51,514 nt of DNA from an uncultured Eubacteriales bacterium. Its GTDB lineage: Bacteria; Bacillota; Clostridia; Christensenellales; CAG-138. Positions 25,161-43,472 of this stretch are shown piece by piece. The stretch's first letter is position 1; every line of letters starts with the position of its first letter. Under the pieces are notes generated by a model, which saw only the letters and a program-made list of their open reading frames with translations, did not search any database and was not told where the DNA came from. The DNA is taken from NCBI GenBank assembly GCA_902789675.1, contig CADAPG010000018.1:1-51514 (forward strand). The letters run 5' to 3'. The position numbers and the translations under genes are program-made.

Positions 25161-25807
25161 TTATCTGATCTGGTCGAGCAGTGCGACGCCCTTGTCTCCC
25201 TCGCCGAGCATGTTTGCGCAGGAATTCCGGAGCATCGGCAGGATCTCATCCCTGAGTTCCGGCTTCAGAACAACGCGGTTCAGGTCTTCGTGCGAAAGCA
25301 GCAGAATCCGCCGCATCGCTTCCAGCGCGAGCTTGTCGATCCGTTTCCCGCTGTCAGCGAAGGACGGTACCCCGCATGGTCCAGATAATGCAGCAGAAAC
25401 GCGATCATTAGATCGTTCGGATCGGAATCGGAATACGCAAGAAACGACAGGATATGATACAGCAGTGAAAACAGCTGTTCGTCCGCAGACTCATGCTCGA
25501 TGACCGTATTGCAAAGCTGCGTGCAAACCGACGCCGTCATGAATCGGTCGACGTCCTCCCGCAGCGGATAGAACGTTTCTCGCACGTCGCACGCGTTCAC
25601 GGTCACGCGATCGTTGTTGATAAACAGCTCGAACTCGCCGAAGACAAACGGCTGCGTGCAGGAAAGCAACGGCGAGGTCGGCTTGCGGCAGTTCCTTGCC
25701 TTGCAGTCGATCCGTCCGCGCTGCGGCGAGAACAGCGTCAGCATGCGGTCGTTGTCCTTGTAGTCGGTATATCCCGTTACGATGGCTTGTGTGAGCTCTG
25801 TCGGCAT
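25161..25807 (-). CDS. recO: DNA repair protein RecO, reading frame broken
   Basis: RecO loads RecA in recombination repair. The first 155 codons from ATG 25807 give a good RecO N-terminus (OB fold, LTLFSPQRGRIDCKAR, then the helical domain ending FLLHYLDHAGYRPSL), after which this frame stops at 25280. The -1 frame continues without a gap as a RecO-like C-terminus (RIDKLALEAMRRILLLSHED to LLDQIR, stop 25161). The switch point coincides with GGGAAAC at 25343-25349, in phase as G GGA AAC. The joined product would be 215 residues and lacks the four-Cys zinc finger found in most Firmicutes RecO proteins (about 255). It could be a pseudogene, a sequencing error or a programmed frameshift. Confidence 0.75.
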
Positions 25808-41393: not shown

Positions 41394-42425
41394 TCACCAT
41401 TTATTGAAGACCTTTTCCGCAAAACCGGGGAATTCCGAAAGCGCAAGTTCCGTACCGTCGTCAAGCACGACCCTGCCGGTGAACCTGCCGAACACCTGAT
41501 GCTGATCGGAACAGATGATCTTCACGTCCGTTTTCGACGCGCGGTCGAGGATCGGCGTAAAGAGAAGATCGAGCCGATTCGCATCGTCTGTGAAATGCCA
41601 CGGAGAAAGCAGATCGTCCGTCCCGTCCGGCTTTTTCGGAATACCGAAATCGACGCGTCCGAGCTTGTGCGCGATCCCGTCGTAAAACAGCATGTTTTCG
41701 CTTGCGGCGCTTGTGTTCCCGAAGCCGTATCCGAGGTTGAAGCCGAACACATGCCCGTCGACCGCGCCCTGCGCCGCGCTCCAGTACCACGTGTTCCTGT
41801 AGGTCCAAACGCCCCTGCCCCAGTCGAGCAGGCCGAAGGTTTCCTGCGGATCGAGCTCCGTCCGTTCGTCGCCGACCGCAAAGAAGCCGCCGGCGCGCAT
41901 GCCGATGATCTTTTGGTTGTAATAGAAATGTCCTTTCTTTTCAAACGGCGTTGCGATGACCATGGAATCCTGCGGCGCATCCGAGAGCAGGATATCGCAC
42001 ACGAACGGCTTTCCGTCGCGGAAGCTGTCGATCCGAAACTGCAGCCGTCTTCCCTCCGGGGTATGCGCAAACGAACCGGACGCGTTCTTCAGCGTCTTTT
42101 GAACGTCGCCTTCCGCCGAGCTTGCCGGAAAGCCGGTCTTTCCCAACGGCAGCCAGAACATCGGCGACACGGTCGTTTCCGTGCAGGCTTCGAAATCGAG
42201 CACAGACGCGGAGAGCAGTCCCATATAGCCGTTGTCGTCGATCGTCAGCGCGACGCCCCACCGGTCGTTCGTGATCAGATAATAGTCCCATTCCTTGATG
42301 CGAAGCTTGCTTGCCTTGATCGCCTTGCGGTCGTACGTTTTCAGAAGCGCCGTCGCAAAGCCGGGTTCCGCAAGATTGCCCTGTCCGTCCAACAGCGGAC
42401 CGGGACCGAACCGATGCTGTTCCAT
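41394..42425 (-). CDS. DUF2804 family protein
   Basis: The product is 343 residues, cytoplasmic and beta-rich. The segments IKEWDYYLITNDRWGVALTI, LDWGRGVWTYRNTWYWSAAQ and FGFNLGYGFGNTSAASENM match DUF2804, a conserved family of unknown role. ATG 42425 is preferred because GGAGGA lies five bases upstream. An earlier in-frame ATG at 42437 overlaps that site. Confidence 0.85.
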   Translation of the reverse strand: MEQHRFGPGPLLDGQGNLAEPGFATALLKTYDRKAIKASKLRIKEWDYYLITNDRWGVALTIDDNGYMGLLSASVLDFEACTETTVSPMFWLPLGKTGFPASSAEGDVQKTLKNASGSFAHTPEGRRLQFRIDSFRDGKPFVCDILLSDAPQDSMVIATPFEKKGHFYYNQKIIGMRAGGFFAVGDERTELDPQETFGLLDWGRGVWTYRNTWYWSAAQGAVDGHVFGFNLGYGFGNTSAASENMLFYDGIAHKLGRVDFGIPKKPDGTDDLLSPWHFTDDANRLDLLFTPILDRASKTDVKIICSDQHQVFGRFTGRVVLDDGTELALSEFPGFAEKVFNKW

Positions 42426-42440
42426 ATGTTCCTCCATGAT

Positions 42441-42467
42441 AAAAAAAGGAGGGCGTTTCCGCCCTCC
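42441..42467 (-). terminator. Terminator after the GGGtGRT gene
   Basis: An eight-base GC-rich stem (42448-42455 with 42460-42467) with a GAAA loop on the minus strand is followed by seven T, ten bases after the GGGtGRT stop. Confidence 0.9.
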
Positions 42468-42476
42468 GATCGTTTC

Positions 42477-43472
42477 TTACAGGCTCTGCGCGATCGCAAC
42501 CGCGACGGCGACCGTTGCGCCGACCATCGGGTTGTTGCCCATGCCGATGAGACCCATCATCTCGACGTGCGCCGGAACGGAGCTGGAGCCCGCAAACTGC
42601 GCGTCGCTGTGCATTCTGCCCATCGTATCGGTCATGCCGTAGGATGCGGGACCCGCCGCCATGTTGTCCGGATGGAGCGTTCTGCCCGTGCCGCCGCCGG
42701 ACGCCACGGAGAAGTATTTCTTGCCGTTTTCGACGCACCATTTCTTATAGGTGCCCGCGACCGGATGTTGGAAGCGCGTCGGGTTCGTGGAGTTGCCCGT
42801 GATGGAAACGTCGACGTTCTCGTGACGCATGATCGCAACGCCCTCGTTGACATCGTCCGCGCCGTAGCAGCGGACCTTTGCGCGTTCGCCGTCACTGAAC
42901 GGCTTGGTGTAAACGATCTTCAGATCGCCGGTGTAGTAATCATACTCCGTTTCCACATAGGTGAAGCCGTTGATGCGGGAAATGATGTATGCCGCGTCCT
43001 TGCCGAGACCGTTCAGGATGACCTGCAGGGGCTTTGTGCGGACCTTGTTCGCGGTACGCGCAATGCCGATCGCGCCTTCCGCGGCCGCGAAGGATTCGTG
43101 ACCCGCCAGGAACGCGAAGCAGCTCGTCTCTTCGCGAAGGAGCATCGCGCCGAGGTTACCGTGACCGAGACCCACCTTGCGCTGATCCGCAACGGAGCCC
43201 GGGATGCAGAACGACTGGAGACCGATGCCGATCGCTTCCGCCGCTTCCGCCGCGTCCTTGACGCCCTTCTTGTATGCAATCGCCGCGCCGACGGTGTATG
43301 CCCATCCCGCGTTTTCAAATGCGATCGGCTGAATGCCCTTGACGATGCCGTACGGATCGACGCCGTGCGCGTCGCAGATCGCTTTCGCTTCCTCAAGATC
43401 CTTGATGCCGTACTCGTTCAGCACCTTCGTGATCTTGTCGATTCTTCTTTCAAAACCTTCAAACGTAATCAT
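42477..43472 (-). CDS. GGGtGRT protein
   Basis: The product is 331 residues. It carries the name-giving motif SGGGTGRTLHPDN near residue 260, and also ITGNSTNPTRFQHPVAGTYKK and a conserved Gly/Ala-rich C-terminus. The family is found in anaerobes, usually beside an Fe-S scaffold-like gene, and has no known function. Here it directly follows that scaffold gene (12-base gap) and both share one promoter. CGGAGGTG precedes the ATG. Confidence 0.9.
   Translation of the reverse strand: MITFEGFERRIDKITKVLNEYGIKDLEEAKAICDAHGVDPYGIVKGIQPIAFENAGWAYTVGAAIAYKKGVKDAAEAAEAIGIGLQSFCIPGSVADQRKVGLGHGNLGAMLLREETSCFAFLAGHESFAAAEGAIGIARTANKVRTKPLQVILNGLGKDAAYIISRINGFTYVETEYDYYTGDLKIVYTKPFSDGERAKVRCYGADDVNEGVAIMRHENVDVSITGNSTNPTRFQHPVAGTYKKWCVENGKKYFSVASGGGTGRTLHPDNMAAGPASYGMTDTMGRMHSDAQFAGSSSVPAHVEMMGLIGMGNNPMVGATVAVAVAIAQSL

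Follow-up and report, generated by a model that had tools for sequence, protein, structure and literature searches.

Is the recO gene of this uncultured Eubacteriales bacterium, the reading frame of which changes exactly at a slippery-type heptamer, a gene inactivated by a deletion, or does it direct the synthesis of a compact RecO protein through −1 ribosomal frameshifting? The window, i.e. the whole stretch of 51,514 nucleotides that we analysed, lies on contig C18 of a 2.35 Mb assembly comprising 147 contigs, with an estimated completeness of 89.5%. It was compared with 22 congeners (the genus set comprises 23 genomes, including the window's own); the named relatives are chiefly uncultured Clostridia of the rumen and gut, and a scan for conspecific records returned other species only. 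The nearest relative, as judged from the N-terminal part of recO (92% identical), is G022; both G022 and G006 are syntenic with the window at the recO locus, and the gene order is kept over most of the window. The relevant features of the locus are as follows:

25280 to 25807, minus strand: recO 5′ part, a 0-frame ORF of 175 amino acids encoding RecO_N and the first half of RecO_C, followed by a 20-codon out-of-frame tail.
25350 to 25355, minus strand: deletion junction, a net loss of 94 bp as compared to the congeners (RCxVCRRD...CxxCPHG finger).
25343 to 25349, minus strand: GGGAAAC heptamer, a relic of the Gly-Lys-Pro codons located 3′ of the finger; the same seven bases occur, in phase 0, in the intact L005 and L009.
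25161 to 25349, minus strand: recO 3′ part, the −1 frame encoding the RecO C-terminal helices (62 codons and TAA).

On the minus strand recO follows era (26858-25959) and a 39-amino-acid ORF; its 0-frame starts with the ATG at 25807 and stops at 25280. In profile searches, the 175-amino-acid product matched RecO_N fully (E 1.7e-14) and RecO_C over positions 1-73 of 157 only, as compared to positions 1-151 for the intact RecO of L003, so that the complete domain does not occur in one frame; the TIGR00613 match reaches residue 155-156. In the −1 frame, no stop codon interrupts the stretch between 25490 and the TAA at 25161; from the GGG at 25349, this frame encodes GKRIDKLALEAMRRILLLSHEDLNRVVLK...LLDQIR, which is homologous to the RecO C-terminus. 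This homology begins at the heptamer itself, where GGG AAA corresponds to the Gly-Lys of the HGGKPVSK motif of the relatives, which places the meeting point of the two frames at the deletion junction just upstream of GGGAAAC. No CxxC pair is present in the recO of the window, and searches of the genome, with the RecO_C family and with a finger plus C-terminal query, returned neither a second recO nor a finger-bearing fragment. These findings bear out the preliminary description, which had reported an N-terminal frame with a tail ending at 25280, a −1 frame running to 25161 and the absence of the zinc finger. The recR and recF products are present and intact in the same genome, making recO the sole affected member of RecFOR.

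The 39-amino-acid ORF between era and recO (25896-25777, minus strand; MKNKQTEEWERFLRSGSVKDYLAYKAKQRECRQSSHKPS), which overlaps the recO start, is kept in nearly all congeners with the pattern WxRFxxTGxxxDYLAYxxxxR, and it matched none of the Pfam and NCBIfam models. By its position and look it may be akin to the small YqzL-type proteins found at the same place in Bacillus, between its era and recO genes.

In 18 of the 22 congeners recO is complete and uninterrupted, a single frame that spans at least 248 amino acids from stop to stop and covers both halves. The G012 recO runs in a single frame through the first finger cysteines up to the contig end, whereas in G001, G002 and G017 neither recO nor its neighbour era was matched, so that the whole era-recO locus is absent from these incomplete assemblies. 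A split recO was found in no other member of the genus. The CxxC...CxxC finger, or a close form of it, occurs in all the congener sequences listed (in L008 the second pair reads C..H). The distance from codon 152 (...SLT) to the Gly-Lys pair preceding KLALEAMRR is 96 nt in G022 versus 2 nt in the window. At the sequence level, the comparison with the relatives demonstrates both the deletion and its net length of 94 bp, which corresponds exactly to the finger; the reading frame changes, since 94 bp do not amount to a whole number of codons. The intact orthologues at the syntenic loci of G022 and G006, together with a length change not divisible by three, support one of the two earlier proposals, namely that a deletion plus a frameshift made a pseudogene. 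As for the origin of the deletion, ACA occurs on both sides of it (CTG ACA in the window, ACA in L003 and CGCACAGCGG in L007). With L003 and L007 standing in for the ancestor, this sharing of ACA by both flanks suggests a microhomology deletion.

The second earlier proposal was that a fingerless RecO is produced by −1 frameshifting on GGGAAAC, with the 175-amino-acid form as a second product. The heptamer (25349-25343) does lie at the frame switch in the X XXY YYZ phase with respect to the upstream frame, as previously described, and such sites are rare: we counted three in-phase heptamers in 2104 codon positions of six neighbouring genes, i.e. an expectation of about 0.1 in the 71-codon overlap, which makes the coincidence a moderate one. 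The proposal is nevertheless not supported, for the following reasons. First, the same seven bases occupy the corresponding position in the intact recO of L005 and L009, where they are read in phase 0 as Gly-Lys-Pro, indicating that the heptamer is older than the deletion. Second, any deletion that leaves the downstream frame at −1 and retains XXX YYY as the first codons after the junction automatically produces the X XXY YYZ phase. Inheritance of the codons, rather than selection for slipping, thus explains the heptamer, the ancestry of which the alignments establish. Third, neither the site nor the two frames are conserved. The preliminary description had held that relatives with an uninterrupted frame and devoid of the heptamer would argue against frameshifting; the 18 single-frame congeners conform to the first part of this expectation, and the heptamer nonetheless occurs in two of them, out of the slippery phase. 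Fourth, the downstream RNA folds no better than shuffled sequences (z −1.0; 29 of 200 shuffles reached the same stability), a pseudoknot-free model places no stem at the expected distance of 5-9 nt, and no Shine-Dalgarno-like or purine-rich stretch was found just upstream of the heptamer. Fifth, according to a review (PMC5009743), the shift-prone form of this heptamer in E. coli is G_GGA_AAG, whereas G_GGA_AAC is one of the sites on which mammalian ribosomes shift most readily and is also used by one archaeal virus. Slipping on G_GGA_AAC is not impossible, yet this is not a typical site for bacteria.

Besides the phasing of the heptamer, the frameshifting proposal can appeal to the constraint still visible on the −1 frame (see below) and to RecO homologues of the same order that lack the Cys4 finger and are encoded in a single frame (L051 and L052). 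These homologues make a fingerless RecO conceivable and frameshifting not impossible, but nothing speaks positively for the latter. A search for literature on recO frameshifting or pseudogenes returned titles and abstracts with nothing relevant to it. Altogether, we consider it very improbable that the window encodes a compact RecO by means of −1 frameshifting.

How long ago did the deletion occur? As compared to its nearest relative, L003, the −1 part shows 9, 7 and 37 differences at codon positions 1, 2 and 3, respectively, and the relative-rate counts reveal no excess on the window's side past the first six residues. Thus, no relaxed selection was found downstream of the deletion, as expected if the deletion is recent. 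Given this strong third-position bias, the deletion must be young compared to the divergence from L003, or occur in some strains only, or result from a faulty assembly, unless the −1 part is still translated, continued translation being the least likely of these readings. The residues adjoining the junction behave otherwise: RID replaces PVS after Gly-Lys (25335-25343, minus strand), a change unseen in 13 congeners, where PVS is nearly invariant, whereas few residues unseen in the congeners occur in the remaining C-terminal part. The RID cluster could stem from mutations made together with the deletion, or from relaxed constraint at the base of the missing finger. These three residues could also represent an adaptation after the deletion, in which case a frameshift site born by chance would have become "compensatory", with a compact RecO made by −1 slipping and PVS subsequently changed to RID. 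To this variant of the frameshifting proposal we likewise grant only a very slight probability.

A different explanation is that the recO of the organism is intact, and that the contig either bridges the finger by joining two pieces or represents a minority variant carrying the deletion. The window comes from an assembly that is fragmented in the manner of MAGs, recO occurs without exception elsewhere (in 38 of 38 good relatives), and the fully constrained −1 part is what one would see in such a case. When the window was set against G022 (about 39.6 kb) and G006 (80 kb), no other genuine gene was found to be split in the aligned part, which excludes general indel noise as the cause and leaves a local error as the form that an artefact could take. 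Against a local error, the junction shares only about 3 bp, too little for a repeat-collapse error, no finger-bearing fragment occurs elsewhere in the assembly, and the residues adjoining the junction are altered too. We therefore regard a local artefact as a doubtful explanation, though one with a better claim than ribosomal frameshifting.

The other apparent frame switches that we examined as possible indel noise could be traced to antisense or overlapping ORFs that are spurious (the one at 42468, for instance, has an intact 347-amino-acid ORF downstream). In the 41394-42741 region (minus strand), a 331-amino-acid gene is immediately followed by a 347-amino-acid gene (41394-42437); in G006, the 347-amino-acid gene is fused to an alternative frame of its 331-amino-acid neighbour, which generates a false frameshift signal in comparisons.

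From these lines of evidence, we propose that recO probably underwent an out-of-frame 94-bp deletion, confined to this genome, and that it is most likely a recent loss of function in a MAG-like assembly. In this scheme, the deletion, plausibly occurring between short ACA repeats, would have taken out the zinc-finger segment; the remaining mRNA would be translated into a 175-amino-acid protein with a nonsense tail, devoid of both the finger and the C-terminal helices; and the inherited Gly-Lys codon pair, GGGAAAC, would have been put by chance in the X XXY YYZ phase. A product lacking the finger and the C-terminal helices is most likely non-functional as a RecO, and we infer that the gene has recently become a pseudogene or represents a variant at the level of the strain, the still coding-like −1 part fitting a recent event. 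Two observations sit less well with a recent inactivation: the C-terminal frame shows zero decay, as a still-translated or misassembled gene would also show, and the substitution of RID for PVS means that the scar is not clean, or that some time has elapsed since the deletion.

If the deletion is real, we are dealing with a rumen-type clostridial lineage that lacks RecO while possessing RecF and RecR, through an ordinary recent gene inactivation. The locus also calls for caution in a more general way: a deletion occurring beside a GGG AAA codon pair can yield a perfectly phased slippery heptamer at the frame junction, and it is the comparison with congeners that settles the origin of such a heptamer.

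Of the known systems, the first to be compared is RecO itself (TIGR00613; PF11967, RecO_N; PF02565, RecO_C; structures 1u5k/1w3s from D. radiodurans and 3q8d from E. coli). Similarly to it, the window has the N-terminal OB-fold part in one frame with the first half of the C-terminal domain, the era-recO order, and the C-terminal helices, here in the −1 frame; unlike it, the finger segment is deleted, the frame is broken and no single frame covers the protein. The E. coli RecO (3q8d) keeps the aligned segment, without the four cysteines. Short RecO homologues also occur in two distant genomes of the same order (L051, 448-993, 182 amino acids; L052, 582-1226, 214 amino acids); the L051 protein is apparently short of its C-terminus, and the L052 protein has no detectable RecO_C match. 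They resemble the window in lacking the CxxC...CxxC finger, and differ from it by their uninterrupted frame, their distant sequences and the absence of a deletion scar or slippery heptamer. Lastly, the window shares with the dnaX type of bacterial −1 frameshifting (A_AAA_AAG; PMC5009743) an X XXY YYZ heptamer where the frames meet. It differs from the dnaX type in that the site is not conserved, no stimulator was found, the second codon is unfavourable for bacteria, and ancestry explains the presence of the heptamer.
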